Positions 4,516 through 42,026 of a stretch of 64,000 bases of DNA are shown one piece after another. The stretch's first letter is position 1, and each line of letters starts with the position of its first letter. The translations under genes and the position numbers were made by a program. The notes beneath the pieces were generated by a model. That model was not told the origin of the DNA. It was given only the letters and a program-made list of their open reading frames with translations, and searched no databases. Where the stretch lies: positions 1 through 64,000 of the forward strand of contig BQIV01000004.1 of the NCBI GenBank assembly GCA_021604005.1, written 5' to 3'. This DNA comes from Nitrospirales bacterium (GTDB taxonomy: Bacteria; Nitrospirota; Nitrospiria; Nitrospirales; UBA8639).

Positions 4516-4567
4516 TCTCTCGGCTCTTCAGGGTAAGAATTATTGGTCTATTCCGACTTCTGTGCAT

Positions 4568-4595: not shown

Positions 4596-4672
4596 GTAGT
4601 TTTCCTTGAGGACATTTGCTCAATGTACATGTCGCATGGTGTTTGATCTCTCTCTCGTTTTACGTTGTTCTA

Positions 4673-5425: not shown

Positions 5426-5635
5426 TGGTGAGGATTCGGTCTATCGCGACCAACAGATATGATTGAGGGCACTTCTCCAACACGTCCTTGCATGTCCACA
5501 TAAATCCTGATTGTTAGAAGTGCCGTTGTGCAAGACATCGCCCTTTCCGTTGTGGGGGTGGGCCCCCCTGTGATATACGACGATCAGTTGGTATGGTAGC
5601 AGAGAGGACCATGGAGTGTTCACTAGCGAATCTGG

Positions 5636-7259: not shown

Positions 7260-7284
7260 CGGGACGTCTGGGTAATGTGTGTGG

Positions 7285-7527: not shown

Positions 7528-7635
7528 ATCTCAATCCCGTCTAGAGGGCTGGGTTTCGGTTCGGTTTTCCCACGTAAACTCACGCATCTTTGTCTAGTTA
7601 ATTTACCATAAGCTTATATCCTGAGACAACACTCC

Positions 7636-10230: not shown

Positions 10231-10249
10231 AAAGACTGCTTGATTCCTG

Positions 10250-11251: not shown

Positions 11252-11314
11252 GTGAGTCCTCTATATATTTCAGGCTTAAATGCTATCGGGCCCGTAGCCT
11301 ACCGTACATCTGTT

Positions 11315-11752: not shown

Positions 11753-11757
11753 AAATA

Positions 11758-12423: not shown

Positions 12424-12481
12424 AGGCTAAATTAATAGAGGAAGTAAAAGGTAAAATGTGACATAGGCAATTGGGGAAGTC

Positions 12482-12517
12482 GTGAAGTGTGAAGCGTGAA
12501 GCGTGAAGCGTGAAGCG
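12482..12517. repeat. Short tandem repeat of GTGAAGC units
   Basis: Five consecutive 7-bp units of the form GTGAAG(C/T) lie between proB and nadD, about 60 bp before the nadD start. The unit GCGTGAAGCG also occurs in the dispersed repeat at 53076-53143 and, inverted, near 16540. This suggests one family of intergenic repeats. Confidence 0.7.
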
Positions 12518-12580
12518 CAAGGGGTGGCAGGGGACATGTGTGACATGCAGTATGATACGTTCAACATTGCGCTTTTCTTG

Positions 12581-14706: not shown

Positions 14707-14801
14707 GAATGTCCTTGTGGCTCAGGAAGATAGTGGTCGTAATGAATGCGAGGGAGGGATTCGTGCGAGTAGCCGAATTGAAGCGAAGGCTCTCGCGTTG
14801 A

Positions 14802-15056
14802 TCACGAAGACGGGTAGATGCTCACTTTTCGCCGGTCTTTACTTCCTTCAAATTTCACCGTGCCGCTCACTTTTGCGAAGAGGGTGTAGTCTTTTCCCAG
14901 TCCGACATTCATGCCAGGATAAAACTTCGTGCCACGTTGTCGAACAATGATGCTCCCGGCACAGACGGCCTCGCCTCCGTACGCTTTTACTCCAAGGTAC
15001 TGAGGATTGCTGTCGCGACCATTTCGAGAGGAGCCTCCTCCTTTTTTATGTGCCAT
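14802..15056 (-). CDS. rpmA: 50S ribosomal protein L27
   Basis: This is an 84-residue L27. It begins [17 protein letters not shown], the flexible N-terminal tail that reaches the peptidyl transferase centre, followed by [20 protein letters not shown] and [10 protein letters not shown]. No cleavable N-terminal prepeptide of the Firmicutes type is present. It lies 28 bp after rplU and 95 bp before obgE in one transcript. Confidence 0.97.
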
Positions 15057-15084
15057 GTGTCGATTCTCCGTTCCAGGTAAATGC

Positions 15085-15402
15085 TTAAGAAGGGTTTACG
15101 ATTTCAGCAATTCGAATTTGCGTGAATCCCTGCCGGTGTCCTTTTGTCCGACGATAATTTTTTCGCCGTTTTTTCTTGAAGACACGAATTGTTCGAGTTC
15201 TTCCATGGCGAAGAATTTCGGCTTTTACCGCTGCATGTTCGATTTTAGGATGACCGAATATTGCGCCACTGTCATTGTGGATGGATCGTACATCAGGAAG
15301 TTCAATGACAGTTCCAACATCCCCGGTCAACGATTCTACTTGAAGCACCACCCCAGGTTCTGCCCGGTATTGCTTCCCGCCAGTCTCAATAATAGCATAC
15401 AT
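15085..15402 (-). CDS. rplU: 50S ribosomal protein L21
   Basis: This is a 105-residue L21. [17 protein letters not shown] opens the beta barrel and [20 protein letters not shown] is the basic rRNA-binding end. It is first in the run rplU-rpmA-obgE-proB-nadD-rsfS and sits behind a strong promoter at 15429-15456. GGGAG lies just ahead of the start codon on the minus strand. Confidence 0.97.
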
Positions 15403-25558: not shown

Positions 25559-25666
25559 TTAATATCAGTATGTTTATGGATGACGCCACCTACAAGAATA
25601 GAACAATCAAAATGATCGAGATGGCCTTATGAATCTATTATGTCCAGTTTAGGGAGGGAATGTGCA

Positions 25667-26509
25667 ATGTTGAAAAACGTAAAAGTGGTGTTTCTTGCCA
25701 CAATGTTGTGGATGACGATTGGAATTCCTGGTTTGTCCAAAGCGGATACGATGTTGGGCATTATCATGGACTCTTCTGGGAGTATCAGTAACAGTGAATT
25801 TAACCTTATGGCGACCGGGATTTCCAATGCTCTTAATACGTTTCTGCCAACGGATGGGAGTTTCTCAGTTGGTGTCGTGCAATTTTCAAGTAGTGCAGCA
25901 ACCACCGTCGCTCCAACAATCATTGACTCGCAATCCACACTGACAAGTGTGACCAATGCGTTACAGGTTCGAGCCTTTGGGGGGTCGACATCAATCGGAG
26001 ATGGAATTCAGCTCATGAATGATAACGCGGATGCGGCGGGATGGTTTGTCGATCCGAATGACGATGTTCTCTATAATGTGATTACCGACGGGCAAAATAA
26101 TACGAATACAGCTCTCCTTCCGACTGCAGTGAATAATGCCCGAAATTTGGGGGTGGATGGTGTTAGTGCTGAAGGTATTGGAACTGGAGTGGACACAGCG
26201 GAACTCCTTAGTATTATTCACCCAAATCCTAATGCTGGGATTGTTTCGCCTGGAAATATTCCGGACCCCAGATCGCAAGGCTTTGTTGTACTTGCGAATG
26301 ATTTCTCAGATTTTGAAGCCGTCTTTGCAGCCAAAATCCAACAAGTCGTGACTCCAGGTCCAGGCCCAAGTCCAGGCCCAGGTCCAGGCCCAAGTCCAGT
26401 TCCTGGTCCGGGTCCAGCACCCGTTCCGGAACCAGGGACGATATTTTTGTTTGGGTCAGGCCTGATGGGACTGGTGTGGTGGAAGATAAAGAAGAGTGCG
26501 GCTTTTTAA
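25667..26509 (+). CDS. VWA-domain protein with PEP-CTERM sorting signal
   Basis: This protein has 280 residues. A signal peptide (about 1-24) precedes a von Willebrand A domain with MIDAS metal-site residues DSSGS (about 31-35) and VITDGQNN (about 143-150). A Pro/Gly/Ser linker of about 25 residues (repeated PGPGPSPGPG) leads to the sorting signal VPEPGTIFLFGSGLMGLVWW and a basic end KIKKS. PEP-CTERM proteins are processed by an exosortase and go to the surface or matrix; no exosortase is in the window. The start is set by AGGGAGGG at 25651-25658. VWA domains often bind other proteins; the ligand is unknown. Confidence 0.9.
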   Translation: MLKNVKVVFLATMLWMTIGIPGLSKADTMLGIIMDSSGSISNSEFNLMATGISNALNTFLPTDGSFSVGVVQFSSSAATTVAPTIIDSQSTLTSVTNALQVRAFGGSTSIGDGIQLMNDNADAAGWFVDPNDDVLYNVITDGQNNTNTALLPTAVNNARNLGVDGVSAEGIGTGVDTAELLSIIHPNPNAGIVSPGNIPDPRSQGFVVLANDFSDFEAVFAAKIQQVVTPGPGPSPGPGPGPSPVPGPGPAPVPEPGTIFLFGSGLMGLVWWKIKKSAAF

Positions 26510-26941: not shown

Positions 26942-28207
26942 TCATGGAAAACATGCCGATGAAGTATCCTCACTCTTTGACTGAATAGAGGCTGTGCAAT
27001 TTAAGGTCGCACGAGTGCCTTCTGGAATTGATCGCCCTCTTGGTTCAACCTTTGCCACTAAGCCATGTGGATATGATGCTACTACTGTTGCCTGAACATG
27101 TGTGGCTGTTCCAAAAGAAATAGGTTGCTCGGGCAGATAGAGTTTCCAGACCGACCCTAGGAATTGCTCTGTATTGCCTGTAATGTTCAACAGAACGCGC
27201 CCGCCCGTAATAGGTTGAACTGAAACCCAGGATGTTCGGAATCTCCGTGTTGTTTGGTTGTTTGGTGTTGTTTGATTCGTGCGGGAAGTGTCAAGAAGGA
27301 AAATTGGCTCGTTTAGCCTATGGGGCGGGGCTTCGAGTTGTGGCTGAGGCATGCGTTGTTGATGGAATCGTGTCGTCAGCTTGCCAAGGTAATCTTGTGT
27401 TTTTTGAAACACTTCGTGATTAGTTGCTCCGAGAGAAATAGCCTCAAGTGTTCGAAAAAAAGAATACGTAAAGATGCCGTGCTCTCTTCCGTCCACCATC
27501 GCGTCAAGCGATCGTTCATGGGCGGCAGCGCTGGTCATAAACACATAACGTTCGGAAAAGAGTGGCGTAACTCCACGGGGACGAGATACCAGATTTTCAT
27601 AAAGATCTAACCGGGTATCACGTGGAATTGACCGAGTCCGTACCTCTCCGCTCCTGGTGGCAGTTCCTGAATGGCAGGAGTCGAAAACAATGATCGCTCC
27701 GTCGGTTTTCAGTTTAGAAAGAATGTGTTCCAACTCATCGTCCGTAATATCGGGAACTCCTTCGGTTCGAGCATCATATGGAACGAGGGTTTCATCGAAT
27801 TGGTCATCGAGTTCATCACCGTTAAGATCTTTCACTTGGGAACCATGGCCAGAATAATGTATGTAGAGGAAATCGTGCGGCCGAGCATCTCGAACGATTT
27901 TTCGTAAAGCCCTCAAAATCCGCTTACGGGTAGCGGCCTGATCCACTAATAATTTCGTATGATGCTGGGTGAACCCAAATCGACTGGTCAGCACCTGACG
28001 CATGACGTGGATATCATTCCTGGACCCCGGCAGTGGTGGAAGCTGATCGTGTTGATAGTGGCTAATCCCAATGAGCAGGGCCCGGCGAGTCGAGGAGGCC
28101 GACCCCGTTTCTTGCGGCCAGCCCCGGGTTTCGAATGCCATGTGATGGATAAGGACAAGTGAGAAAGTCCAAATGAGCCAGGTCTTCTTCGTCATGCTTC
28201 GTGACAT
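26942..28207 (-). CDS. Exported caspase-family (C14) protease
   Basis: This protein has 421 residues. A signal peptide (MTKKTWLIWTFSLVLIHHMA) leads to a caspase-like domain starting RALLIGISHYQ. The catalytic histidine is in YIHYSGHGSQ (about residue 119) and the cysteine in IVFDSCHSGTATR (about 176), both intact, so activity is likely. Members of this fold cleave after basic or acidic residues; no specificity can be read here. The C-terminal third (about 300-420) is an extra beta-rich domain of unknown role. The ATG at 28207 is chosen for AAGGGA five bases upstream. It is divergent from the sigma/anti-sigma/CHAT operon. Confidence 0.9.
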   Translation of the reverse strand: MSRSMTKKTWLIWTFSLVLIHHMAFETRGWPQETGSASSTRRALLIGISHYQHDQLPPLPGSRNDIHVMRQVLTSRFGFTQHHTKLLVDQAATRKRILRALRKIVRDARPHDFLYIHYSGHGSQVKDLNGDELDDQFDETLVPYDARTEGVPDITDDELEHILSKLKTDGAIIVFDSCHSGTATRSGEVRTRSIPRDTRLDLYENLVSRPRGVTPLFSERYVFMTSAAAHERSLDAMVDGREHGIFTYSFFRTLEAISLGATNHEVFQKTQDYLGKLTTRFHQQRMPQPQLEAPPHRLNEPIFLLDTSRTNQTTPNNQTTRRFRTSWVSVQPITGGRVLLNITGNTEQFLGSVWKLYLPEQPISFGTATHVQATVVASYPHGLVAKVEPRGRSIPEGTRATLNCTASIQSKSEDTSSACFP

Positions 28208-28786
28208 GTCGATCCCTTGGGACATGTTATACGACTCACTGTTGCGTGTTGACGGATGAAAAAAGAGCGTAATGTATTTTAGTGTTAATCTCAAGACTGT
28301 CGGCTTGCGAGCGGCTCAGAACCAGCATAGAACGCCGACGGTCAAAAGTTGTTCTAGATGAAGACCGCACACATATTAGTGGAAACGTCTTTCCTCCGAG
28401 TGGTGAATGCGTCAAGTGAATAGGGGGAAGATGGTCATGTATCGCCTCAGGTTTTGCTGAAGGTTCTTGAACGGCGAAGCTGAGTCGAATATCCGCGCGG
28501 GCAGTGTCGTGGAATGTGCGCGATAGACTGTTCGATTATTTTAGCAGTCTTGGAAAGACTAAGCCGGAAATTCAATCGGACAAGCGGCGACATACAGGCC
28601 TGGATATTTAATGGCTATTCGGATATTCTCATTCCACCATTCAACATGACTTTGCCGTATTACCATTTTGGTGATGCCACGGACGTGTCCCAGCGCGGCA
28701 AGTCCCAATTCGGTCTAGGTGAGATTGTCTTCGAGGAAGCGGGGTTCTTGAAGGATGAACTTTTGGATTTTCCAGAACGACTAACG
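28208..28786. other. Divergent intergenic region, caspase and sigma genes
   Basis: This is about 580 bp between divergent starts. An open frame in phase with the sigma gene extends back to 28514, but the extra 91 residues do not resemble an ECF sigma factor. Promoters for both units must lie here; no consensus sigma-70 boxes stand out, which would fit an alternative sigma factor. That is inference. Confidence 0.4.
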
Positions 28787-29368
28787 ATGGGTCAATACGA
28801 AGAGTCTCCAGATGAAGACCTTCTGGCATGGTCGGTAAAGGGCGAACTGGCTTTTGAGGCATTCTATCACCGTCATAAACAGAAACTTTTCGGTTTTGTG
28901 TTGCAACAGCTAGGCGATAAGGACTCTGCCGAAATCGTTTTCCAAAATGTGATGCTTGCAGTGAGAGACGGTGCAAAGACTTTTGAGGGCCGTGCCAACG
29001 TTTCCACATGGATGTGTCGAATCGCGAAAAACAAAGTCATAGATTTCATTCGTACGCGTTCACGCAAAGAACCAAATGTGGTCGCGATAGAAACCATCGA
29101 AGACTTCGTCGATCCGTCGGAAAGTCCAAGTGACAGAATGGAGAAGAAGGATCTTACTGATGCCATGCAACGGGCAATTTGGACATTGTCTCTGGAACAT
29201 CGCCGTGTTCTTTATCTAACCTTCCATTTTTATCTGTCTTACCAGGAAGTCGCTTTAGTGGAAGGAATACCTGTCGGAACCGTGAGATCGCGACTATCAT
29301 TGGCCAAACGCAAGTTAGCTGACGCATTAGCAGAAGGTTGCATCCCCGCGAGGGCATCGCATGAGTGA
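28787..29368 (+). CDS. ECF-type RNA polymerase sigma factor
   Basis: This protein has 193 residues from ATG 28787. Region 2 is seen as FEAFYHRHKQKLFGFVLQQL with the following ANVSTWMCRIAKNKVIDFIR (about 25-90). Region 4 is LSLEHRRVLYLTFHFYLSYQ and IPVGTVRSRLSLAKRKL (about 135-185), the -35-binding helix-turn-helix. Region 3 is absent, as in ECF factors. The frame stays open 91 codons upstream, so the start is uncertain and no clear ribosome site was found. It overlaps the anti-sigma gene by 8 bp, which implies tight co-expression. Confidence 0.9.
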   Translation: MGQYEESPDEDLLAWSVKGELAFEAFYHRHKQKLFGFVLQQLGDKDSAEIVFQNVMLAVRDGAKTFEGRANVSTWMCRIAKNKVIDFIRTRSRKEPNVVAIETIEDFVDPSESPSDRMEKKDLTDAMQRAIWTLSLEHRRVLYLTFHFYLSYQEVALVEGIPVGTVRSRLSLAKRKLADALAEGCIPARASHE

Positions 29369-30101
29369 GCACCCCACGTCGAACCCAACGACTGATCCAG
29401 TAACCGATTTATTACCCTGGTTTGTGACGGAAAGACTCAATGACTCGGATCGTCAAGCCGTCGAGCAACACTTGCCAGGCTGCGAGCATTGCCAAAGAGA
29501 ATTGGAATATGTGCGCCGGCTTCAACATGACCTCGAGGAAAGCTATGCAACGCTTCCAGAGCCTTCGCCTGAGGTGTACGCGAGAATACAAAGGGGAGCT
29601 CTACAGGAAGAGACTTCGTTTAGGCCGAAACCGGATCCCAATGATCATCAAGAGAGTCGGAGTTGGCTGTCCGTAGCCGAAGAGAGGTTACGACCCTTAT
29701 GGAACGTCAGGTGGGTCCCAGCTCTGGTGGGGCTTCTTATTGTAGGCCAAACCACTTTGCTTATGTGGGACCGGTTGATCCTCCCACAAGATGATCGGAA
29801 GGAGACTCCGGATATCGTTACAGGGCCAGTCACCGAACGATCGCTTAAGCCGGGAATTCCCCAAGTTCCCTCCCTCTTATCGACAGTGGAAATTCAATTG
29901 GCATTTCAAGAAGGGGCATCAGAACAAGATCTTCGATCGGTAATGCATCGATTGAATGGGCAGATTGTCGATGGACCGTCTCCTGAAGGTGTGTACGTGG
30001 TAGAGGTATCGACGAATGATATACGCGCTCTTGATGAGCAAATCCAGGTTCTCCGTAGCAAGAGTGATCTCATTCGAATAGCGAAACGATTGTATCCCTA
30101 A
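29361..30101 (+). CDS. Membrane anti-sigma factor with zinc finger
   Basis: This protein has 246 residues. The N-terminal zinc-finger anti-sigma domain has VEQHLPGCEHCQREL (about 34-48; the H-x3-C-x2-C ligands of ZAS domains). One membrane helix follows (WVPALVGLLIVGQTTLLMW, about 119-137). The outer part (about 170-246, EGASEQDLRSVMHRLNGQIV then GPSPEGVYVVEV) resembles the propeptide-like N-terminal domain of subtilisin-type proteases. It therefore probably holds the ECF sigma at the membrane and senses a periplasmic cue, perhaps proteolysis. The last step is inference. It sits between the sigma and CHAT genes. Confidence 0.85.
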   Translation: MSEHPTSNPTTDPVTDLLPWFVTERLNDSDRQAVEQHLPGCEHCQRELEYVRRLQHDLEESYATLPEPSPEVYARIQRGALQEETSFRPKPDPNDHQESRSWLSVAEERLRPLWNVRWVPALVGLLIVGQTTLLMWDRLILPQDDRKETPDIVTGPVTERSLKPGIPQVPSLLSTVEIQLAFQEGASEQDLRSVMHRLNGQIVDGPSPEGVYVVEVSTNDIRALDEQIQVLRSKSDLIRIAKRLYP

Positions 30102-30119
30102 AGATCTGCAGATTTGTTG

Positions 30120-32654
30120 ATGAACCCAATTACGAAAACGTCTCTACAGCTTTCTCTGTTTGGTGAAATTATGGGTAAGTTATCGAAGTCTCATGATGTG
30201 ATGAACAAGGTCATTGGCATTGTGTGTATGACCGGTTTTCTGCTTGTCAGTGGATTCGTTTCGTCCTTTGAATGTCTAGCAAGTGCACAAGCAGCCCGTT
30301 CTGCCGAAGGCTATATGAAAACGGCCAAGGAGGCATATCACAAAGGTGTTGTGGGGAGTGCCGCCCTTCAATGGACAGAGGCGGCCCACTTGTATGAAAA
30401 AGAGGGCAACCTTCAGGGGCAGGCCCAAGCGCTTCTCTACCTTGGCCAGAGCCTTACGCGTATGGGGCACATCAACAAGGCCATTCTGACATTCGATGTT
30501 GCCAAAGACTTGGCGAATCAAGGGAACGACAAGCCTCTCATGGCTAGGATTCTCGGTAGTCTAGGAAATTCCAATTTTTTATTGGGTAGGGAAAAGGAAG
30601 CAGTCGATTATTTGACGCAGGGCCTTGAGTTGGCTCGAGTCGAAGCATTGTCCGCTCAAACGGGTGTGCTATTGAATGATGTGGGCAATGTCCAATTTGC
30701 GCTCAAGCAATATAATTCTGCGCTAGAAGCATACATTGAAAGTGCCGTGCTGTCGGAACAAACAGGAAATGACACCTTGTCATTCTTGGCTCTCATCAAT
30801 GCAGCTATGGCAGAGATTAAAGGCAATCTATATCATAATGCTCATGAGCGTCTTGAGCTGGCGCTCTCTAGGATTCAGTCCATTCCAGACTCCCATGACA
30901 AGGCTCAAGGGCTCTTGAAAATAGGCCTTGCATATGAAGACCTTCGGAAATCGCTTGTCCGCAACAATCTCCCGCCTTCAACGGCATTGACGGCAATGAG
31001 CCAAGCCGACAGCCAAACGGGTAAGCCGGATCTTGTAGTAATGCAAAAAGGTTTCACGCGTGAGGCATCGGAAGAGATGGATGACTCTGGTGTCGTGCTG
31101 AATAAGTCGGTCATGGCCTTTCAACAGGCTATCACCGTAGGCAAAAAGCTAGGAGACCACCGAGCGGAATCCTATGGGCACGGGTATCTCGGACGTGTGT
31201 ATGAACACGAAAGCGACTGGCATAAATCTTTGACGCATACACGCCAGGCTTTACATCTTGGTCAAAGGATGGCTGCGCCGGAATTGAACTATCGGTGGCA
31301 ATGGCAAATAGCCCGAGTACATCGAAAGGCGAATAATGATGACGAAGCCATGACCGCGTACCGGTCGGCCCTGAATACGCTTCATCCGATACGGCAAGAG
31401 CTGTTAGCAGGATACCAAGGGCGTAGACCGCCTTTTCGTGTAGGCATCGGATCGCTGTTCTTCGAGTATATTGATCTTCTCCTGCACAAGGCTTCCACGA
31501 CATCAAGTCCTCTGGAGTCTCAAGCCTATTTGGGGCAGGCGCAGAAAATCCTGGAAGAATTCAATGCCGCAGAGCTACAAGATTATTTTCAAGACCAGTG
31601 TGTCGAAACCGTAAAGACGCAGAGACTCGCCTTGGAGCACGTGCCCAAAGCAAAAAGCACCGCAGTCATCTATCCTGTCATCTTGCCGGGTCGTTTGGAA
31701 TTGTTGGTGAGGCTTCCGTCGGAATTAAAAACGTACCGAGTCGGGGTGAAGGCGCAACTTCTCACGCAGACGATTCATAGGTTTCGTGACAGCCTTGAAG
31801 ATCATGTTCAGGGAGCAACGGAAAGTACGCAGCATGCCCAACAGTTATATGATTGGCTTATTCGCCCTCTCCTGAAAGACTTGATGGAGGCTTCCATCAA
31901 CGTTCTGGTGTTCGTTCCCGATGGGCCTCTGCAGACTGTTCCCTTCGCCCCCCTCCATGACCGCATCCAAAACCGGTATTTAATCGATCAGTTTGCGTTG
32001 GCTGTCACGCCCGGCATCTCACTCACCGATCTTCGCCCCATGGATTCGGCGAATGTGAGAATTCTGGGTCTCGGTTTGAGCGAAACCGTCCGTGGGTTTC
32101 AATCCCTTCAATGGGTGACAGAGGAAATGAAGGCGCTTGAAGGTTTGTTCCCAAGCACCATCTTGCTTGATCAGGAATTTCAAGTTTCGAACATGGATCG
32201 TGAATTGAAAAGTCAGCAATACAATGTCGTGCACATCGCGACGCATGGAAAAGTCCAGGCAAAGGTGAACGATTCATTTGTTCAGGCATTTGACCAGAAA
32301 ATTACGATGGATCGTCTCGCCGACATGATTGGCGTGTATAAATTTGGCGCCCAGCCATTGGAACTTTTGACGCTCAGTGCGTGTGAAACGGCAGCCGGCG
32401 ATGATCGAGCAGCCTTAGGTCTTGCGGGTATTGCGATAAAGGCTGGGGCAAAAAGTGCATTGGCTAGTCTTTGGCCGATCGATGACGAAGCCACGTCAAA
32501 ATTGGTTTCGGAGTTTTATCGACAGATCTCTGAAGATCCTACGACTTCTAAAGCTGTCGCGCTCCAACGGGCTCAACAAATCCTCAAACGTCATCCACAA
32601 TACCGGCACCCTCGCTATTGGTCGCCGTTTCTCCTTATCGGCAATTGGCTATAA
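30120..32654 (+). CDS. TPR-CHAT protease-like protein
   Basis: This protein has about 844 residues. A signal-like hydrophobic segment (VIGIVCMTGFLLVSGFVSSF) ends near residue 45. TPR repeats follow (about 60-480; AEGYMKTAKEAYHKGVVGSA, LGQSLTRMGHINKAILTFD). The C-terminal CHAT domain (about 560-844) has the catalytic pair: His in VVHIATHG (about 709) and Cys in LTLSACETAAGDD (about 754), then GIAIKAGAKSALASLWPIDD. CHAT is a caspase/separase-like peptidase fold. ATG 30120 follows two in-frame TTG codons; ATG 30171 or 30201 would place the signal segment closer to the start. It begins 18 bp after the anti-sigma gene. Confidence 0.9.
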   Translation: MNPITKTSLQLSLFGEIMGKLSKSHDVMNKVIGIVCMTGFLLVSGFVSSFECLASAQAARSAEGYMKTAKEAYHKGVVGSAALQWTEAAHLYEKEGNLQGQAQALLYLGQSLTRMGHINKAILTFDVAKDLANQGNDKPLMARILGSLGNSNFLLGREKEAVDYLTQGLELARVEALSAQTGVLLNDVGNVQFALKQYNSALEAYIESAVLSEQTGNDTLSFLALINAAMAEIKGNLYHNAHERLELALSRIQSIPDSHDKAQGLLKIGLAYEDLRKSLVRNNLPPSTALTAMSQADSQTGKPDLVVMQKGFTREASEEMDDSGVVLNKSVMAFQQAITVGKKLGDHRAESYGHGYLGRVYEHESDWHKSLTHTRQALHLGQRMAAPELNYRWQWQIARVHRKANNDDEAMTAYRSALNTLHPIRQELLAGYQGRRPPFRVGIGSLFFEYIDLLLHKASTTSSPLESQAYLGQAQKILEEFNAAELQDYFQDQCVETVKTQRLALEHVPKAKSTAVIYPVILPGRLELLVRLPSELKTYRVGVKAQLLTQTIHRFRDSLEDHVQGATESTQHAQQLYDWLIRPLLKDLMEASINVLVFVPDGPLQTVPFAPLHDRIQNRYLIDQFALAVTPGISLTDLRPMDSANVRILGLGLSETVRGFQSLQWVTEEMKALEGLFPSTILLDQEFQVSNMDRELKSQQYNVVHIATHGKVQAKVNDSFVQAFDQKITMDRLADMIGVYKFGAQPLELLTLSACETAAGDDRAALGLAGIAIKAGAKSALASLWPIDDEATSKLVSEFYRQISEDPTTSKAVALQRAQQILKRHPQYRHPRYWSPFLLIGNWL

Positions 32655-32686: not shown

Positions 32687-33301
32687 CTATGAGGACGTGC
32701 AGTCGGAATGAGATGAGGATTCTCGGCCAATATTGTCAGACATGAGGGCGACGGTAAATTGTTCGACAAACCCCAGTCGAAGAGTCGGCAGATTCGTTCG
32801 ATTTTTTTCAACTCTATCGGGATTTTCTAAAAACGCAGGACTGGCTAAAAAGTCTTCCGGCTCGAGTGGGAGTATGTCACGTCCCCCCTGAACGAAACTG
32901 CTCAATTGCCCGCCTTTCTGTGCCGCACACCGAGCGGTCATGATGGTCGTGACTTGTAAAAGGTTTTCAGGCAACGGGGCGATGGTCCCGCTCAAATTCT
33001 GAACTGGGGCCCGAATGTTTACCGAACCGCTGACTCCAAATTGGGAAGAGGCATTGATGGTACTCAATGGATCCACCAGAACGACATTTCCAACGAGCTC
33101 AATAGATCCGCCATCGATATGATGCACATTCCCAATCTGAGTAATGACAGTGCCCAACGTACCATCAGACGATACATTTGTTAGCACTCGCCCGTATCCT
33201 ACTTGGAGGAACGTATGTAGTAGAAAAAGGGCTGTGACGAAGGATACCAATGTAAACAAGGAGCGTTTGCTATGAAACTGAAAAGCGTAGAGTTTGAACA
33301 T
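32687..33301 (-). CDS. Internally deleted miniature of a TpsA exoprotein
   Basis: This protein has 204 residues from ATG 33301. Residues to about 63 match the signal and opening of the large exoprotein at 38076-41024 (SSDGTLGTVITQIGNVHHID), then it jumps directly to that protein's last part (SIELVGNVVLVDPLSTINAS and beyond). About 2.3 kb, meaning most of the TPS secretion domain and all beta-helix repeats, is missing at the junction near 33110-33114. The frame is kept. It retains the tail motif ARCAAQ...SSF...GRD..PLEPEDF. Without a full TPS domain it is unlikely to be secreted by a TpsB partner. It may be a decaying copy or a donor cassette for recombination. Confidence 0.8.
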   Translation of the reverse strand: MFKLYAFQFHSKRSLFTLVSFVTALFLLHTFLQVGYGRVLTNVSSDGTLGTVITQIGNVHHIDGGSIELVGNVVLVDPLSTINASSQFGVSGSVNIRAPVQNLSGTIAPLPENLLQVTTIMTARCAAQKGGQLSSFVQGGRDILPLEPEDFLASPAFLENPDRVEKNRTNLPTLRLGFVEQFTVALMSDNIGRESSSHSDCTSS

Positions 33302-33320
33302 GAGAGATAGGCGTTTGTAT

Positions 33321-33352
33321 AAAAACCCTGGTTGGCTCAAGGACCAACCGGG
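33321..33352 (-). terminator. Probable terminator for the 839-residue protein gene
   Basis: GGTTGG (33330-33335) pairs with CCAACC (33344-33349), and two further G-C pairs extend the stem past a bulged base. On the minus strand it is followed by GGGTTTTTATAC. It would end transcripts coming from 33540-36059. The alternative is the left-end hairpin of a small mobile element (see 33413-33513). Confidence 0.5.
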
Positions 33353-33539: not shown

Positions 33540-36059
33540 TTAGAAGGTTGTTTCATACGTATAGTCTTTATAAAGCCACCGCCCGTTTATTTTCGTCCAG
33601 AGCCGCACATAGATCGGGTCCCCAGTTAAAGGGATGCTGGTGATCTGAGTCGTCGTCTTTGTTCCCTGCGACTGTGCGTAGAGGTTGCCCCAGGGCTTGG
33701 TGCTGACTGATTCTAGGGAAGTGCCGATCCCAAGCCAGTACTGGGTTACCTCGAAGCCTTGCGTCCAGTGAAACGTCACTGTTGATGAGGTCAGTGTGGT
33801 GCTGGGGCGTGGTACTTGCATTTGGGCATGTGGCGTGGACTTCTCTGTGAGATACGTATAATCCTCATAGAGCCACCGCCCGTTTATTTTCGTCCAGAGC
33901 CGCACATAGATCGGGTCTCCAGTTAAAGGGATGTTGGTGACCTGAGCCGTCGTCTTTGTTCCCTGCGACTGTGCGTAGAGGTTGCCCCAGGGCTTGGTGC
34001 TGACTGATTCTAGGGAGGTACCGATTCCCATCCAGTATTGAGTTGCGCCCTGGCCTGGATTCCATTCAAAGGTTACCGCGTTCTCGGTAATTAGCAATCC
34101 AGCCATAGGTGAAGTGATCTTTCCCTTGCGCCCCTGAGCTGTATCATAGAACGGATTGAATTCCGATTCGGCAAACATGTTCCAGGCCGTAGCCGCTATA
34201 TGTAACCGTTGCAGTAATTGAAATCCAAAGCCACTCGTCACACCTGAGTGGCTTGCTGCTACGATTCCCTGGCCGGTTCCCTCTCCAGGGAAATGAGTAG
34301 CTTGCGCACGTCGCAGTTCTTCTCGTAAGTTACTGCCAGATACCGTTTGACCAGCGATGTCATAGGCAACCGCCATCTGGGCTGTTCCCTCAAACCAGAC
34401 GCCATCTTGGTCATCATTAAAATCAAATCCTTCAAACCCGTCATGAATTGTATGATGATTCTGTTCGGCACAAGTTAGAATCTGAGCGTACAGATTGGAG
34501 GCATCTTTCAATGCCAATACACTCCAGGATTGAGTGTCCAGGGGCAATTGCCCTGACTGCTCATTGCGCATATTAGGATTAATAGTACCGGCAAAAAAAC
34601 ATCCGGCTTGTGGATCGTACATCTGATCAATGAAGGCGCGGGCATGTAGAGCGGCTTCGTGCCATTTTGGTTCTCTCGTTAATTGAAACAATGTTGAAAA
34701 TCCCGCAAACACATCCAAGTTGTGTTCAGTACTTGCCCATGGCCGTGGAATCGGATTGTTACTTTCAGGGTCGTCCATTCCGCCTTGGAAACCTTTGAAT
34801 TTTCCATTGGTATTTTGAAATGTGAGTATAAACTCACCAAGGCGTTTAGCCGTTTCCAAGTAGATTGACTCTCCAGTAGTTTGATGCAGCGCCAAGAGGG
34901 CTATCATGACCCACGAGTTATTGCCTACATCAACACTTTTCTGTTCCACTTCAATGAAACGCTGCTGATCTTCGAGAAAGATTCCTGGAATGGGAACAGT
35001 CCCAATAAAGTTGTTAGGAATCCATCCGGGCGGCAGGGTAAGGTCACCTGCCATGTAGGCGGTTCGAATCCGAGCTATCTCTCCCTGCGAATCCCGGAAG
35101 TTAGGATGTCGATCGTGTTGTGATGCATAGACAAAGGCATCCCCTATGAGTTTTGCTCGTCGAATGCTATCAGGAGAGCCATCAGCTAAGAAGGCGAGAA
35201 GTACTGTGGCATTGTCATAGGAAAATGCTAAGTTTCGAAGCACAAAATCAAAGTCATCGAATGCCCCAAGTGCTGGTTGATGCGGCTCGGTTGTAAAACT
35301 CCGAAGAAAACGTGGTTCGTTTAGCCTTTGCTCTCGACGCGAGCTGTTCAATTCATACTGAATATCATCAAGAAAAAAAACGGCTCCCCTAGGGTTTTTT
35401 TGAGCATTGGCAATCCATCCGAATCCACCCAGAACATAACTCAAATCATGATTCGCTACATCGATTTCATATTGTTGCCAGGTTGATGTCAGGGTTACCG
35501 ATTGTTTCACCACCGGAGTAGACCCGGGAAAGGAAGTCGTAGGGTTGCCCGTCATGGGATCCCGACCAACCCCACCCATGAAGAATTCGATCTGCTCACC
35601 TCCTTGTTGTCCTCGTGCCCAAAATATGAGTCTCGTTGCACCGGTCAGATCAACTCCAGCATTGGGTACTGCACCGAAATTCAAGACAGGAGCGGTCGCC
35701 GTCGGAGGCAATGTGCCATTTAACAGGTAGAAGCCACCAATGGCCCCAGTATTGGTCACCACAAATTCACAGCGGATGGCGGTCGCACCAGAATGAGGAT
35801 TGTTCGTTGCCGTGCCGCTTATCGTAACTGGAGCATGTTGGTCGGGAATTTTGGCCCAAGCATGAAAGTGATTCCCTGCCGAACTCACATCATCGTAAAG
35901 GGGGAATCTGTCATGGTACTGGTCCATAACGGCTTTCAAATACTTAAGGCTAGCTTCCTGGGAAGTCTCTGCGAGGGTGAAAGTTGATGAAAAGGTCAAC
36001 AAAAAGAAAAGGGTTAATAAGACCTTATCCCATATTATGAAGTTACATTTGAAAGTCAT
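33540..36059 (-). CDS. Large secreted toroid-type protein with two C-terminal repeats
   Basis: This protein has 839 residues. A signal peptide (about 1-30) is followed by a CBM-like beta-sandwich (about 75-235, ending AVFFLDDIQYEL). A helical region (about 270-640) follows with NNSWVMIALLALHQTTGES, WASTEHNLDVFAGFSTLFQL and DTQSWSVLALKD, which looks like an (alpha/alpha) six-hairpin glycosidase toroid. Two copies of a 99-residue domain (about 645-740 and 745-839) end the protein; each has SLESVSTKPWGNLYAQSQGT and YVRLWTKINGRWL and is over 90 percent identical in DNA. It may act on a polysaccharide; the substrate is unknown. AAGGAGG lies 7 bases before the start. Confidence 0.75.
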   Translation of the reverse strand: MTFKCNFIIWDKVLLTLFFLLTFSSTFTLAETSQEASLKYLKAVMDQYHDRFPLYDDVSSAGNHFHAWAKIPDQHAPVTISGTATNNPHSGATAIRCEFVVTNTGAIGGFYLLNGTLPPTATAPVLNFGAVPNAGVDLTGATRLIFWARGQQGGEQIEFFMGGVGRDPMTGNPTTSFPGSTPVVKQSVTLTSTWQQYEIDVANHDLSYVLGGFGWIANAQKNPRGAVFFLDDIQYELNSSRREQRLNEPRFLRSFTTEPHQPALGAFDDFDFVLRNLAFSYDNATVLLAFLADGSPDSIRRAKLIGDAFVYASQHDRHPNFRDSQGEIARIRTAYMAGDLTLPPGWIPNNFIGTVPIPGIFLEDQQRFIEVEQKSVDVGNNSWVMIALLALHQTTGESIYLETAKRLGEFILTFQNTNGKFKGFQGGMDDPESNNPIPRPWASTEHNLDVFAGFSTLFQLTREPKWHEAALHARAFIDQMYDPQAGCFFAGTINPNMRNEQSGQLPLDTQSWSVLALKDASNLYAQILTCAEQNHHTIHDGFEGFDFNDDQDGVWFEGTAQMAVAYDIAGQTVSGSNLREELRRAQATHFPGEGTGQGIVAASHSGVTSGFGFQLLQRLHIAATAWNMFAESEFNPFYDTAQGRKGKITSPMAGLLITENAVTFEWNPGQGATQYWMGIGTSLESVSTKPWGNLYAQSQGTKTTAQVTNIPLTGDPIYVRLWTKINGRWLYEDYTYLTEKSTPHAQMQVPRPSTTLTSSTVTFHWTQGFEVTQYWLGIGTSLESVSTKPWGNLYAQSQGTKTTTQITSIPLTGDPIYVRLWTKINGRWLYKDYTYETTF

Positions 36060-36167: not shown

Positions 36168-37829
36168 TTAGTCCGAACGCGATTTGTAGATGATTTTTCG
36201 AATTTCGTCGTTCTTGGGTCCTGTGAAAATTGATTGCCTCCATCGACCTATTCCTAAAAAGAAACTCTTCACTCTCGTAAGTGTCTGATCCGATTGAAGC
36301 TCTAAGATATCTAAGCCTAACCTGTTTGCGGAGGAGACTAAAACTTCGTCCTTTTCAGACACTGCCAAATTGTCGGCTAAGTCTATTTTCAGCGTCGATA
36401 CAATTTCGAAAGTGTTCATGTCGATCACGGTGACTTTTCCTCCCCGGTATCTTGGATTGCCAGCCGAGCCAGCGAGTGCATACTTCCCATCTGTGGTGTA
36501 CGCTACTTGGCCGATAAAATCCCCCTGCACAAAAACATAGGCGAGGCGTGACAAACTGGTAGAGTCATAAAATCCAATGTGGTTACTATTTAATCCTCCA
36601 TAGCTGGATTTAGCTAAAATCCTTCCATTTGGAGAGAGACTCACGTCACTCTGAAATCTACGTTCCCACGGTAATCGAGGTATCCAAGTTGTGTTGGTGA
36701 GCGTATTAATCAGTGTCATTCTATTGCGTGATGTGCGACAGTAAATCGTTTCACCGTCGAGCGATATCGTTGGGGTACCTGGAATAGCAGCTCCACCGTA
36801 TGACGAACCAGTGAGGATACTCACCGGCAAGGAAGGTTCTAAGATGTTCGTTTGACGATTTAAGACTTCCTTCCCTGAATACAGGCGAAGCCCATCAGGA
36901 GAAATGATGAATCCATTTGGTTGAATAGGCTCAGTGAAGTGCAGTTTTTCTGATTCTTCTTCGTGGAAGGAAGTGGAAAAGACTGAACCGTCTGCCATAT
37001 AAATTTCGGTTCGTTGAGGTGAGAGTCCGCGGATGTGTTTGTTGTCCAGCATGCCAAGAATAGTATCCCCATCTAGATCCAAGACAACAGTACCGTCTAG
37101 TCCCTGCCCCTCTGTGTCAGGACGAGATTTAACCACGTCCACATACACTAACCGTCGATCGCCTGTATAAAACTGATTGTTATATACAATGTGTTTGATG
37201 ATGTGTTCACGGTCACCACTTGGAGTTTCGATCGTGAGATTGATCACATTTTGTCCACTTGCGAGGGGAACTGTTGTGACGAAGTTGCTCTCGCTATCCT
37301 TTTGGACAGGAATTTCGTTTACAAAGACGTGGTTGTCAGCATCGGTATTCCCCGAAACAACCATCGTTGGGAGATTCGTATTCAATACGTCAGGGAGTGC
37401 TCGGAACTCGATAATTGGCGGAATTGCGGATGTGTCATATTCATAGTCCTGAAAGAGCCATTCCCCATTAATCTTGGACCATAGGCGTACGTGTATCGGT
37501 TGGCCCGTCAACGGTATGTCGGAGATTGTTACGGATGTGCTGGTCTGTTGCGATTGAGCATAGATGTTTCCCCAAGGTTTGCTCGCCACGGAGGTAAGGG
37601 TCGTGCCCATGCCCAGCCAGATTTCTGAGACCCCTTGCCCCGAGGTCCAGGTAAAGGTGATTTCCGAGGTGGTGAGCACGGTACCAGGGGCTGGACTTTT
37701 CATTGCGGATGGTGATGTGGCGTGCCCCCATGCGGTGTTATTACCTACCAATGGGCTTACTAGACAAAAGAAAATGAGAACGAACGTCTTGAGCTTCTCT
37801 GACATTTTTTGTTTCAAGCAATTAATCAT
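36168..37829 (-). CDS. Secreted beta-propeller protein with SKPWGN-type domain
   Basis: This protein has 553 residues. After a signal peptide (about 1-36) comes one copy of the repeat domain found twice in the preceding gene (FTWTSGQGVSEIWLGMGTTL, SKPWGNIYAQS, HVRLWSKINGEWLFQDYEYD). An Ig-like domain follows (about 140-225, LASGQNVINLTIETPSGD), then a WD40/YVTN-like propeller (about 235-550; SPDGLRLYSGKEV, SLDGETIYCRTSRN, TTDGKYALAGSAGN). Propellers of this kind usually bind proteins or sugars. The start is fixed by AGGAGG six bases before ATG 37829. It lies upstream of, and probably with, 33540-36059. Confidence 0.8.
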   Translation of the reverse strand: MINCLKQKMSEKLKTFVLIFFCLVSPLVGNNTAWGHATSPSAMKSPAPGTVLTTSEITFTWTSGQGVSEIWLGMGTTLTSVASKPWGNIYAQSQQTSTSVTISDIPLTGQPIHVRLWSKINGEWLFQDYEYDTSAIPPIIEFRALPDVLNTNLPTMVVSGNTDADNHVFVNEIPVQKDSESNFVTTVPLASGQNVINLTIETPSGDREHIIKHIVYNNQFYTGDRRLVYVDVVKSRPDTEGQGLDGTVVLDLDGDTILGMLDNKHIRGLSPQRTEIYMADGSVFSTSFHEEESEKLHFTEPIQPNGFIISPDGLRLYSGKEVLNRQTNILEPSLPVSILTGSSYGGAAIPGTPTISLDGETIYCRTSRNRMTLINTLTNTTWIPRLPWERRFQSDVSLSPNGRILAKSSYGGLNSNHIGFYDSTSLSRLAYVFVQGDFIGQVAYTTDGKYALAGSAGNPRYRGGKVTVIDMNTFEIVSTLKIDLADNLAVSEKDEVLVSSANRLGLDILELQSDQTLTRVKSFFLGIGRWRQSIFTGPKNDEIRKIIYKSRSD

Positions 37830-38075
37830 GATGAACCTCCTAATTTTTGAAAATTGCACAAAAAACTGCGAAACTCTTTCAGAGACTGTCAGTGTTCCTT
37901 TTTATTCATTGACCTTTTCGATCTACAGAAAAAATTTACTCAAGAAGTCACGATGGAACCAACAGCAGTAGGCAAGGTATTTAGTCGTATGAGAAGGTAA
38001 AAAGGTTCAAAAGAAAAAGACCAAGCAGGAGAAATCCGAACCAATCAAGGAATGGCCGGAAGAAATACGGATGGC

Positions 38076-41024
38076 TTACTGTAGGGAAAGGCTAGGAGCA
38101 CAGTGGGGAGATGCAAAGGAAGAAAGTAGGCTAAAAGTATTCTGGCTCTCTAGAGCCTTCCTTGGTTGGGTGAAGCCGAGGCGACGCGCGAACATCTCTG
38201 AAGAGTAATCTTGGTCCTTCTTATGGACAGTGCTCCCTGGGTTTTCTAGGAAAGTAGGGCTGGCCAAGAAATCTTCCGGCTCCAGCGGGAGTGTATCACG
38301 TCCACTCTGAATAAAACTGCTCAATTCACCATCTTTCTGTGCCGCACACCGAGCGGTCATGATGATCGTGATTTGTAAAAGGTTTTCAGGCAACGGGGCG
38401 ATGGTCCCGCTCAAATTCTGAACTGGGGCCCGAATGTTGACCGAACCGCTGACTCCAAATTGGGACGAGGCATTGATGGTACTCAATGGGTCCACTAGAA
38501 CGACATTTCCAATGAGTTCAATAGATCCGCCAGTTCCAGAAACCGCCGTAGCAAGCAATTGACTGTTCTGCAGCGTAATGAATTGCGGATCGAGACTGAT
38601 CGTGCCTCCAGTGGTTAGCTCATTACCCTCCACCTTAGCCTCAATCGTGCTATCCAGGAGTTGAATGCTCTGATCGGCTGTCAATTTAATATTCCCGCCG
38701 GAGGCGATGTCTGCAGAAGTTACGATCGAGGCATCATTGAGAGTAATGGCGTCTGTAGCAGTAATGTTGATTTCACCGGCGTCGTTCACCCCGGTACTGC
38801 GTGCAGAGATTCCTGCGCCTGGTTGAAGCGCAACTTGATTGGCTGTAACGGTAATCTCTCCCCCAGCTCCAGCCCCTACTCCCTGGGAGGTCGAAAATAC
38901 TCCCCCTTGAAACAATCCACGGTCCGAGAGCCCCAATCCCGATACTGTGACCGTATCGGTCGCAACAACGGTGATGGATCCTCCCTTGCCTGGCCCGGTG
39001 GTACTGGTATCGATCTCAGCCCTCTCTTTGATTGTCACATTCTTAGCTTTGACTGCAATATCTCCCGCATCTCCGACTCCACCTGAAACTGCATGTAACC
39101 CACTGGTAATTGTTCCATTGCTGGTTTCACCTGACCCCGAAAGGGTTATGTCCCTGTTAGCTACAACCTTAAGAGAGCCCCCTTCACCAGGCCCCAGGGT
39201 ACTGCTATCAATAGTTGCTCCTCCAGTCACTACCACATTCCCTGCCTCAATTTGGATGTCACCGGCATTCCCAACTACATCAAGGATAGCCACCACGTTT
39301 CCATCCAAAACCATCGCTTCGCCATTGCCTGCAGTTGACAATATCCCAGTGGGTGAAAAGCTCTGCGGATTATTATCAGACATTATCATGCTCTCATTAC
39401 CCGTGATGCGCACATTTCCTCCATTTCCAGGGCCGTTGGTGATACTGGTGACAACTGCACCGTTTTTAATGGATACATTCTTTGCTGTAACTGTAACGCC
39501 GCCGGCATCACCAACATCAACAATGGAGGCCACATTACCTTCATTGTCCAAAATAACGCCTTCTGCGGCTGAGGATAAAATCCCACTTGGTAGTACCAAA
39601 CTGTTTGGGTTAGCGCCGGATAGTGTGATGGTTTCGTTGGCGGTGATATGGACGGCTCCTCCGTTTCCAGGGCCGTTTGTAATGCTATTGATTGCCCCTC
39701 CATTTTGCATAGTCACATTTTTTGCCGTTACCGATATGGCACCTGCATTCCCGACTTCGGTGATGAATACTACATTACCTTCATTATCCCTAATGGCCCC
39801 GTTCTCAACGGACGAAAACAAACCAGTTGGTCTTTTCAAGCCATTACCGTTCAAATCCGAACCATCAACCGTGATAATCTCTTTGGTTATAATACTCAAA
39901 TCACCTGCATCCCCTGGGCCGTTGGTAAAACTTAAGATTAGGGCTTCGTCAGAGATAGTCACATTTTCAGCTTGTACCTTCACATCACCTGCGTTGCCAA
40001 CTCCCAGAAATGTTCCTGTAGACAAGCGTGCACCATTCGTGACTTCGACATCATTCGTTATTTGTATATCGATTGCGGTTGACGCGCCATCCAGGCTCCC
40101 AATGGTAGTTGATGATATTGTTGCATTATCGATCATTAAGCGGCCGCTCCGAATGACTACGGTTCCCCCACGACCGTTGCCTCCGGCAAATTCAGGTATC
40201 CCATCAACATCAATTAGTGTATTGGGTGCCAGCGTAATCTTTCCATGTTGAGCTGCTGATACCTTAACCTCAGCTCCCTCTTGACTTAAGGATATTTCAC
40301 CTGGTGAGTCAAAGCTGACCAGATGGACCTGTCCACCAGGAGCACTAAGTGTGGGAATAAACTGTTGGGTAAAGAAAGGATTCCCATGAGTCTCAATATC
40401 ACCGGCGGTTACCGAGAGCGTTTGACCTTCTGAAACGGCAAGAGCACTCTGGTTGATGGTAATCCCGGCTGGGCTCTCACCTAAAAACCCAAATGCTTCA
40501 ACCGGGGCCGTGCTCAGCACACCGTCTTGCTCAAGATCGGTGTGAAATTCCATGCCATCCTCAAATTGTAAAAAGTCCGCGGTGCTCACATAAAACGATC
40601 CACTCAGATTCAACCGGGCATTGGGACCAAAGAGCACACCGGCGGGATTGAGCAGAAACAGGTTGGCGCCATCGATCGAAGAGTGAAGGATGCCGTCGAT
40701 ATCCGAGCGCATCCCACCCGTCACGCGACTGAGGATATTTTCGATACCATTTGGTCCATGGAAACTCGCAATGTCACCGGTGCCCACACTGAACTGATCG
40801 AAACTATGGAACTGATTCGGACCTGTGATCATTCCACCATCGATATGATGCACATTACCAATCTGGCTGACGGCAGTGCCTAACGTCCCGTCAGACGAAA
40901 TGTTTGTTTGTACTTGTCCGTACATCTCTGGGGGGAACGTGTGTAGAGGTAAGACGATCGTGAGGTATGACAGCGCTAAGCGAAAGACTTTGAAATGTAA
41001 CCACACTGCATGATGAGTGGACAT
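38076..41024 (-). CDS. Two-partner-secretion exoprotein (TpsA, filamentous haemagglutinin type)
   Basis: This protein has 982 residues. After the signal peptide a TPS secretion domain (about 38-165) shows SSDGTLGTAVSQIGNVHHID, ILSRVTGG and NLFLLNPAGVLFGPNARL, the conserved NPxG region. Residues 240-850 form a beta helix with repeats of about 65-75 residues carrying SITNGPGNGG-type turns and VTAKNV-type strands. The tail ARCAAQKDGELSSFIQSGRD then LPLEPEDFLASP is like that of cyanobacterial and Nitrospirota TpsA proteins. It would cross the outer membrane through a TpsB/FhaC porin, which is not in the window. Role: probable adhesin or matrix protein. Confidence 0.9.
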   Translation of the reverse strand: MSTHHAVWLHFKVFRLALSYLTIVLPLHTFPPEMYGQVQTNISSDGTLGTAVSQIGNVHHIDGGMITGPNQFHSFDQFSVGTGDIASFHGPNGIENILSRVTGGMRSDIDGILHSSIDGANLFLLNPAGVLFGPNARLNLSGSFYVSTADFLQFEDGMEFHTDLEQDGVLSTAPVEAFGFLGESPAGITINQSALAVSEGQTLSVTAGDIETHGNPFFTQQFIPTLSAPGGQVHLVSFDSPGEISLSQEGAEVKVSAAQHGKITLAPNTLIDVDGIPEFAGGNGRGGTVVIRSGRLMIDNATISSTTIGSLDGASTAIDIQITNDVEVTNGARLSTGTFLGVGNAGDVKVQAENVTISDEALILSFTNGPGDAGDLSIITKEIITVDGSDLNGNGLKRPTGLFSSVENGAIRDNEGNVVFITEVGNAGAISVTAKNVTMQNGGAINSITNGPGNGGAVHITANETITLSGANPNSLVLPSGILSSAAEGVILDNEGNVASIVDVGDAGGVTVTAKNVSIKNGAVVTSITNGPGNGGNVRITGNESMIMSDNNPQSFSPTGILSTAGNGEAMVLDGNVVAILDVVGNAGDIQIEAGNVVVTGGATIDSSTLGPGEGGSLKVVANRDITLSGSGETSNGTITSGLHAVSGGVGDAGDIAVKAKNVTIKERAEIDTSTTGPGKGGSITVVATDTVTVSGLGLSDRGLFQGGVFSTSQGVGAGAGGEITVTANQVALQPGAGISARSTGVNDAGEINITATDAITLNDASIVTSADIASGGNIKLTADQSIQLLDSTIEAKVEGNELTTGGTISLDPQFITLQNSQLLATAVSGTGGSIELIGNVVLVDPLSTINASSQFGVSGSVNIRAPVQNLSGTIAPLPENLLQITIIMTARCAAQKDGELSSFIQSGRDTLPLEPEDFLASPTFLENPGSTVHKKDQDYSSEMFARRLGFTQPRKALESQNTFSLLSSFASPHCAPSLSLQ

Positions 41025-41414
41025 TAGTAATCGTCGTTCGTATGAATTCTAAAGATGTTGCAAGGAAGACGGCATGCTCGCATAAGATTGAAATAATTGC
41101 AACTTTTCAGGGAACCAATTCTCTTAAATTGGTCCGCAAAGTGTAGCCCAACAAATTTTATCGAACACAACATGCTCTTGAAGTAACCGTGACTCCCAGT
41201 GGTTGAACACGCATATGTTCATGCCGGAGCCTTCGCTCGTTACAAGAATATGAGGTGGGTTTTAGGGCCAGTGTGAATGCCGTCGCTCGTCCTCTCGTAA
41301 GCCAAAAAAAGATTTTTTCTCCTCCTCTGAACCTTTTTGTGCTCTGTAACGACTAATCAGGCAATCACGCTATTGTTCTTGGATTTTTTACAACCCTATG
41401 TGAGGAGGTGGCTC
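41025..41414. other. Divergent intergenic region
   Basis: This lies between the TpsA start and the outer-membrane barrel gene. It contains the small inverted pair CCAATTCTCTTAAATTGG around 41115-41132 and little else. No gene or clear promoter was identified. Confidence 0.4.
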
Positions 41415-42026
41415 ATGCGAAGGAATTCTTTGTCCATTTTAGCTGTGTTATGTGGATTAATACTGGTTTTTGGATTGCCTGGCATTGTGCAGGCTGATAG
41501 CGGCGCTGAGGAGAAGGGGTGGATTGTTTCGGGGGCAGGTGGTGTCTTTATCCCATTTCAAGGTGACGCGGGCTTTAGTGGTATTGCTCAAATCATGACA
41601 AAAATTTCACCTCAGACGCGTTTGGGAGTGGAGTTGGACTACACACAATTCGATACCAAAATTTTTAAAGTCAAGAACGTCGAAGTCAAGTCGTATAGCT
41701 TGCGCGGACTCATGCAGTATTTTTTCAAAAAGGAAGGCCTATCGCCGTATGTTGGAGCAGGTATTGGCCTGTCTCTCAATCAGTTAGACAAGAAAAAAAT
41801 CGAGCGGGGTAGACCGGAACTTGACGTGGTCAATAAATTTGGGTTCGGCGCGGGGTTTATTGGTCTTGCCGGAGTTGAAGTTCCGCTAGCCAGCCGTGTG
41901 GCATTTTTTGCTGAAGGGCGGCTTCATGGAGCATTCCAAGTTACGCGGGTTGAAGGAGGGGAAGGAACATCTGTGGAGAGTCTCAGCGGTCTATCCGGAC
42001 TCGGGGGGCTACGTGTGCTCTTTTAG
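41415..42026 (+). CDS. Outer-membrane beta-barrel protein
   Basis: This protein has 203 residues. The signal peptide MRRNSLSILAVLCGLILVFG ends near AQAD-like VQADS. The rest alternates polar and hydrophobic residues in strand-length units (TRLGVELDYTQFD, SYSLRGLMQYFF, LSPYVGAGIGLSLNQLD, GLAGVEVPLASRVAFFAEGRLH) and ends in LGGLRVLF, with the terminal phenylalanine used for Bam-dependent insertion. It fits the OmpA-like eight-strand barrel group. GAGGAGG at 41402-41408 fixes ATG 41415. It may form one transcript with the lipoprotein genes that follow. Confidence 0.85.
   Translation: MRRNSLSILAVLCGLILVFGLPGIVQADSGAEEKGWIVSGAGGVFIPFQGDAGFSGIAQIMTKISPQTRLGVELDYTQFDTKIFKVKNVEVKSYSLRGLMQYFFKKEGLSPYVGAGIGLSLNQLDKKKIERGRPELDVVNKFGFGAGFIGLAGVEVPLASRVAFFAEGRLHGAFQVTRVEGGEGTSVESLSGLSGLGGLRVLF

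Follow-up and report, generated by a model that had tools for sequence, protein, structure and literature searches.

The window examined here comprises 64,000 nucleotides of a Nitrospirales bacterium (GenBank assembly GCA_021604005.1, contig BQIV01000004.1, positions 1 to 64,000, forward strand) and encodes an exported caspase-type protease, an extracytoplasmic function (ECF) sigma factor, a membrane-bound zinc-finger anti-sigma factor (ZAS), and an exported TPR-CHAT protease. Comparison with related genomes identifies the caspase, sigma factor, and ZAS as the conserved unit, which differs from the unit drawn in the original prediction, where the order sigma, ZAS, TPR-CHAT was expected to be conserved. 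Together with an invariant arginine in the periplasmic linker of the ZAS and a common promoter motif, this conservation suggests that the caspase could be a dedicated site-1 protease of the ZAS that starts release of the sigma factor, a proposal to which we give about an even chance.

We searched 98 related genomes for the ZAS and for the caspase, with clear orthologues defined by E<1e-20 for the ZAS and E<1e-88 for the caspase. Orthologues of the two proteins occur in the identical 15 of the 98 genomes and nowhere else among them (p=5e-18), and every pair adjoins an ECF sigma gene (15/15 genomes), with the ZAS of locus L034, concealed beneath an overlapping open reading frame (ORF), recovered in a closer search. 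The linkage of caspase, sigma factor, and ZAS is far beyond chance. A scan of GTDB genomes added further Nitrospirota and one gammaproteobacterium (L123) with the same arrangement. The caspase gene is divergent from the sigma-ZAS pair in one family of layouts and directly downstream of the ZAS in another. The module is usually completed by at least one DUF4384 protein, and a DUF4384 domain also forms the C-terminal end of the caspase. In a mirror-tree comparison, the distances of ZAS and caspase correlate at 0.64, a value that may reflect no more than organism phylogeny; the sigma factor, represented there by fragments, was left out of the comparison.

The window genome departs from its relatives in having TPR-CHAT after the ZAS and in lacking both the DUF4384 partners and the DUF4384 half of the caspase. 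At 450 amino acids, compared with ~740-800 in relatives, the window caspase stops cleanly where their C-terminal DUF4384 half begins, and no DUF4384 domain or remnant was found anywhere in the genome, the window included. Residues H150, C207, D94, and D205 are invariant in 14 caspase orthologues, and the closest solved structures are metacaspases (5e-37). Acidic S1-pocket positions in the metacaspase/orthocaspase family, which correspond here to D94 and D205, accept basic residues, and by analogy with this family the caspase would be expected to cleave after Arg or Lys (PMC6426788).

In an AlphaFold model of the ZAS, the linker between the transmembrane helix and a confident ferredoxin-like domain has a predicted local distance difference test score below 50. 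We compared this linker in 33 ZAS proteins, 25 of them caspase-linked and 8 subtilase-linked. A linker arginine is invariant in the caspase-linked proteins (25/25), in the context (I/V)xxR(G/S/A)(I/L/V), where it is often the sole basic residue of the linker and small residues (G/S/A) come next, while the stretch containing it occurs in 0/8 subtilase-linked proteins, including a paralogue on contig C67 of the window genome. Because the arginine is present in ZAS proteins paired with a caspase and absent from those paired with another protease, the caspase probably cuts there, and R160 is the predicted site in the window ZAS. The paralogue belongs to a second ECF-ZAS module (G000:C67, L049; ECF 6747-7463, ZAS 6098-6727, S8 4777-6165, all on the minus strand) with an exported-looking subtilase in place of the caspase, a type that recurs in relatives (L021-L024, L050-L052). 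Structure matches of the ZAS C-terminal domain include subtilisin propeptides among ferredoxin folds, none at E<0.001. Homology of this domain to the linked subtilases' prodomain was considered; the match is at the level of fold, with no support from sequence.

The caspase/sigma intergenic regions of relatives contain a common motif, TTGAAC-N16-CAGAC(A/T)(T/A)A, 5' of the caspase, and across relatives the motif also precedes caspase and DUF4384 genes. A scoring matrix built solely from these intergenic regions was run over the 64-kb window, where the sites ranked 1, 4, and 7 lie before a 563-residue exported ORF, an outer-membrane protein (OMP)-like ORF, and the sigma gene. Each of these sites reads TGAAC-N16-ACGACTAA, an exact string that we chose after inspecting the sites and that has these three copies in the whole genome, where 0.14 are expected. 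As the string was fixed post hoc, the independent test is the one across genomes: a relaxed pattern is present in 15/15 genomes with the module, at 46 sites that include some of the caspase promoters from which the idea of the pattern came, versus 4/83 others (7 sites; p=2e-14), and the reversed pattern is rare in all genomes. Three of the 7 sites, good matches on C8 and C108, are in G041, a fragmented genome in which the module was not found and may sit in an assembly gap. We predict that TGAAC-N16-ACGACTAA is the probable promoter of this sigma factor. Most sites unlinked to the module lie 5' of genes whose products begin with a signal peptide or a lipoprotein-like stretch. One site in G071 lies in front of an exported papain-type protease (L228:1659-2867), possibly a further protease of the regulon. 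In the window, no promoter site was found 5' of the caspase, directly 5' of CHAT, or 5' of the TpsA gene, which had been suggested as a target of the sigma factor.

In the sequence of events that we infer, the ECF sigma factor would be held by the membrane-bound ZAS until an envelope signal leads the caspase to cleave the disordered linker after the invariant arginine (R160 here) and so to remove the ferredoxin-fold sensor or inhibitor domain. A resident intramembrane protease would complete the release in a site-2 step, and the freed sigma factor would transcribe its regulon from TGAAC-N16-(A/C)nGAC promoters. This regulon would comprise exported and surface proteins and the protease itself, which is the caspase in relatives and CHAT, in the sigma operon, here. 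No terminator-like site was found between ZAS and CHAT, so sigma-ZAS-CHAT is plausibly one operon, probably transcribed under its own sigma factor, and TPR-CHAT in the slot behind the ZAS is probably a second or replacement protease. The suggestion that two proteases are under control of the anti-sigma factor thus fits CHAT in the window and the caspase in relatives, but not the window caspase, which lacks the promoter of the sigma factor.

Several points weigh against a role of the caspase as site-1 protease. The contrast between 25/25 caspase-linked and 0/8 subtilase-linked proteins possibly reflects one ancestral split between C14 and S8 types; its statistical independence is therefore overstated, and it is a strong hint rather than proof. 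An arginine immediately outside the membrane could also be kept for other reasons. The 3' edge of the promoter site lies only 2 bp before the sigma ATG at 28787, and it would therefore give a leaderless transcript or serve ZAS-CHAT only. Because its gene has no promoter site and half of its length is lost, the window caspase may have lost its job and may no longer serve as the anti-sigma protease.

TPR-CHAT comes from a different setting. The order sigma-ZAS-TPR-CHAT, sought in the 98 genomes, occurs in the window genome only, with no other relative having TPR-CHAT directly 3' of the ZAS, and this is the outcome that the original prediction had itself named as speaking against a conserved order. 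In relatives, TPR-CHAT adjoins TpsA/TpsB or a CHASE2 cyclase, and Nitrospirales TPR-CHAT proteases are regularly found in these positions (L188-L199, L203 and L200-L203, L053, respectively). No paper connecting CHAT with two-partner secretion (TPS) was found in the literature searched. In a tree whose deep nodes are weak, the window CHAT stands alone on a long branch and falls outside the group linked to CHASE2. Csx29 was considered as a close sequence relative and is absent from its matches. In a Chromatiales metagenome-assembled genome (L157), genes for a caspase-DUF4384 protein, TPR-CHAT, TpsA, and TpsB are consecutive, with ends touching or overlapping, in a cluster (4290-15096) that also holds an ECF sigma gene and a Ser/Thr kinase-DUF4384 gene. 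Pseudomaricurvus (L133) encodes, one after another, TpsB, a TPS-TPR-CHAT fusion, and a caspase-DUF4384 protein. These two gammaproteobacteria are unrelated, and both have contiguous caspase, CHAT, and TPS genes. The window gene order therefore combines two elements that were brought together locally, the caspase/sigma/ZAS module and a CHAT gene of a kind usually associated with TPS genes.

Of the TpsA exoproteins placed near the proteases by the original prediction, one is real and lies 5 kb from CHAT (38076-41024). The immediate neighbour of CHAT (32687-33340) is a copy with an internal deletion; it keeps the N-terminal 66 and C-terminal ~130 residues of that protein (54% and 74% identical, respectively). 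The window TpsA has no TpsB beside it; the genome encodes a single TpsB, which lies on contig C69. As a whole, the original prediction is partly supported. It was right in spirit, with caspase, sigma factor, and ZAS forming one conserved module and sigma-ZAS-CHAT probably one operon, and its link to the cell surface agrees with the exported and surface proteins of the predicted regulon and with the contiguous genes of the two gammaproteobacteria. It was wrong on which order is conserved and is unsupported on control of cell death, which nothing indicates.

The proteases could instead be outputs of the system rather than triggers, with the ZAS sensing its signal through a generic site-1 protease or a conformational change, and with the caspase, CHAT, and exported proteins acting as regulon effectors in the processing of TpsA and other surface proteins. 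The promoter of the sigma factor 5' of the caspase itself in relatives, a regulon of exported proteins that includes the papain-type protease in one genome, and the gene clusters of L157 and L133 all fit this explanation, but a trigger protease with positive feedback fits equally. Proteases as mere outputs also leave unexplained why the linker arginine is limited to caspase-linked ZAS proteins and why C14 and S8 proteases each go with their own type of ZAS, and we consider this explanation unlikely, though worth serious attention.

A different assignment would have TPR-CHAT act on the ZAS in the window genome, with the truncated caspase a relic or otherwise employed. CHAT adjoins the ZAS behind a predicted autoregulated promoter, in Craspase it is a TPR-CHAT protein, Csx29, that cuts the sigma inhibitor (PMC10028731), and the chain solved in PDB 8rot/8rw5 matches both ZAS and CHAT, hence the two occur fused. 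However, the ZAS-CHAT adjacency is unique among the 98 relatives, related TPR-CHAT proteins are TPS- or CHASE2-linked, and the window genome keeps both the catalytic residues of the caspase and R160 of the ZAS, making this assignment improbable. Still less probable, and in our view very doubtful, is that TPR-CHAT is an unrelated passenger of a TPS cassette that landed behind the ZAS, leaving caspase-sigma-ZAS as the only system. The company of TpsA/TpsB kept by Nitrospirales relatives of TPR-CHAT and the convergent TpsA remnant beside CHAT would agree with such a landing, but caspase and CHAT are contiguous in the unrelated lineages of L157 and L133, and the TpsA gene region has a further exact promoter site on either side.

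Among known systems, Craspase of type III-E CRISPR combines the TPR-CHAT protease Csx29, Csx30, and CASP-sigma, with proteolysis of the inhibitor freeing the sigma factor (PMC10028731). The window likewise encodes a caspase-fold (TPR-CHAT) protease, an ECF sigma factor, and a sigma inhibitor together, but its inhibitor is a membrane ZAS, its proteases look exported, and the conserved protease is of the C14 metacaspase type. The window has no ORF of Cas7-11 size (none >982 amino acids), and its ORF list has no Cas-like neighbour, although Cas profiles were not run. The ZAS domain, single transmembrane helix, and periplasmic domain resemble anti-sigma factors of the RseA/RsiW type that undergo regulated intramembrane proteolysis, and site-1 followed by site-2 cleavage is presumed. 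The site-1 cut in membrane anti-sigma factors is known to be made by DegS, signal peptidase, and similar enzymes; no published caspase-type site-1 protease was found in the literature searched. In Myxococcus DdvS/DdvA, a ZAS (DdvA) is also paired with an ECF sigma factor. PDB 8rot/8rw5, a solved 991-residue 'CHAT domain-containing protein', matches the ZAS profile at its N-terminus (E 0.004) and, weakly, the CHAT profile at its C-terminus (E 0.04); it is presumably full-length DdvA. In contrast to DdvA/8rot, the window ZAS and CHAT are separate ORFs, and the ZAS has a transmembrane segment and a ferredoxin-fold domain.

DUF4384 orthocaspases share the C14-type p20 domain with DUF4384 and the basic-residue specificity of the family (PMC6426788), but an ECF/ZAS association, common promoter, and matching ZAS arginine are undescribed in the papers found. 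The EACC1/EACC2 conflict systems have caspase and ECF sigma neighbourhoods and TPR genes (PMC8195603). They differ in that no variable effector was seen at the window locus and the window proteins are exported, and the window caspase scores 84 bits against an EACC1-type caspase model with a cut-off of 140. Anti-phage defence was considered and set aside, with matches only to generic caspase, TPR, and weak BovA models. No published ECF-caspase-ZAS or CHAT-TPS system was found in the literature searched, nor was the combination seen here, of a membrane ZAS, a metacaspase-type partner, a matching linker arginine, and a defined regulon.

ORFs, profiles, and residues agree with the gene arrangement originally described, in which the sigma ORF (ending at 29368) and the ZAS (starting at 29361) overlap by 8 bp, CHAT follows 18 bp on, and a divergent exported caspase and CHAT each have an intact His/Cys pair. 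The proteins match Peptidase_C14 (1e-28), Sigma70_r2 (8e-12) and Sigma70_r4_2 (2e-9), zf-HC2 (2e-5), and CHAT (1e-56) with TPR. By profile match the sigma protein consists of regions 2 and 4 only, and it most likely starts at ATG 28787 rather than at 28514. The TPR-CHAT ORF is open from TTG 30114, and ATG 30120 gives the 18-bp gap. Caspase and CHAT have hydrophobic, signal-peptide-like N-terminal stretches, and the ZAS has one membrane segment. A VWA protein with a PEP-CTERM sorting signal (25640-26509, plus strand) adjoins the 3' end of the caspase gene. Two exported neighbours on the minus strand (33540-36059 and 36168-37859) share a repeated domain that is ~57% identical (motif ...WLGxGT...KPWGN.YAQSQ).

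Table 1 Features of the caspase/sigma/ZAS locus and its surroundings in window coordinates.
Feature	Coordinates	Strand	Remarks
Exported caspase/metacaspase-like protease (Peptidase_C14)	26942..28294	-	His150/Cys207; invariant S1-pocket Asp; no DUF4384 C-terminal half
Predicted promoter site TGAAC-N16-ACGACTAA, directly 5' of sigma	28756..28784	+	Predicted autoregulation of sigma-ZAS-CHAT
ECF sigma factor, 193 residues from inferred start	28787..29368	+	ORF open from 28514
ZAS, one transmembrane helix, periplasmic ferredoxin-fold C-terminal domain	29361..30101	+	
zf-HC2 domain of ZAS	29400..29495	+	Hx3CxxC motif; H37, C41, C44 invariant
ZAS transmembrane helix, residues 119-140	29715..29780	+	
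Arg160 codon in disordered periplasmic linker of ZAS (residues 141-169)	29838..29840	+	Predicted cut site
ZAS periplasmic beta-alpha-beta-beta-alpha-beta domain	29877..30092	+	Subtilisin-propeptide-like fold
Exported TPR-CHAT protease	30120..32654	+	His711/Cys757; begins 18 bp past ZAS
Internally deleted TpsA copy	32687..33340	-	Convergent with CHAT
Exported protein, 563 residues	36168..37859	-	Predicted regulon member
Second exact promoter site (predicted)	37981..38009	-	122 bp 5' of 563-residue exported ORF
TpsA-type exoprotein	38076..41024	-	TPS domain 1.9e-40; no promoter site found
Third exact promoter site (predicted)	41328..41356	+	~60 bp 5' of likely ATG of OMP gene
Outer-membrane beta-barrel-like protein (229-residue ORF)	41337..42026	+	Real start ~41415; predicted regulon member

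The substrates of bacterial caspase homologues are largely unknown, and for one family the module points to a specific substrate and residue. With a named substrate, residue, and transcriptional output, the proposal can therefore be put to a direct test using a handful of expressed proteins. More broadly, exported Arg-specific proteases of the metacaspase type may serve bacteria as dedicated site-1 proteases of membrane anti-sigma factors, whose linker would contain the cut site, and one ECF-ZAS chassis may have been refitted with C14, S8, and CHAT proteases while the linker changed to match, a generalization that we advance tentatively and hold at somewhat short of an even chance. The module would also make the sigma-releasing caspase-fold protease of Craspase part of a wider, CRISPR-independent coupling of such proteases to ECF sigma factors.

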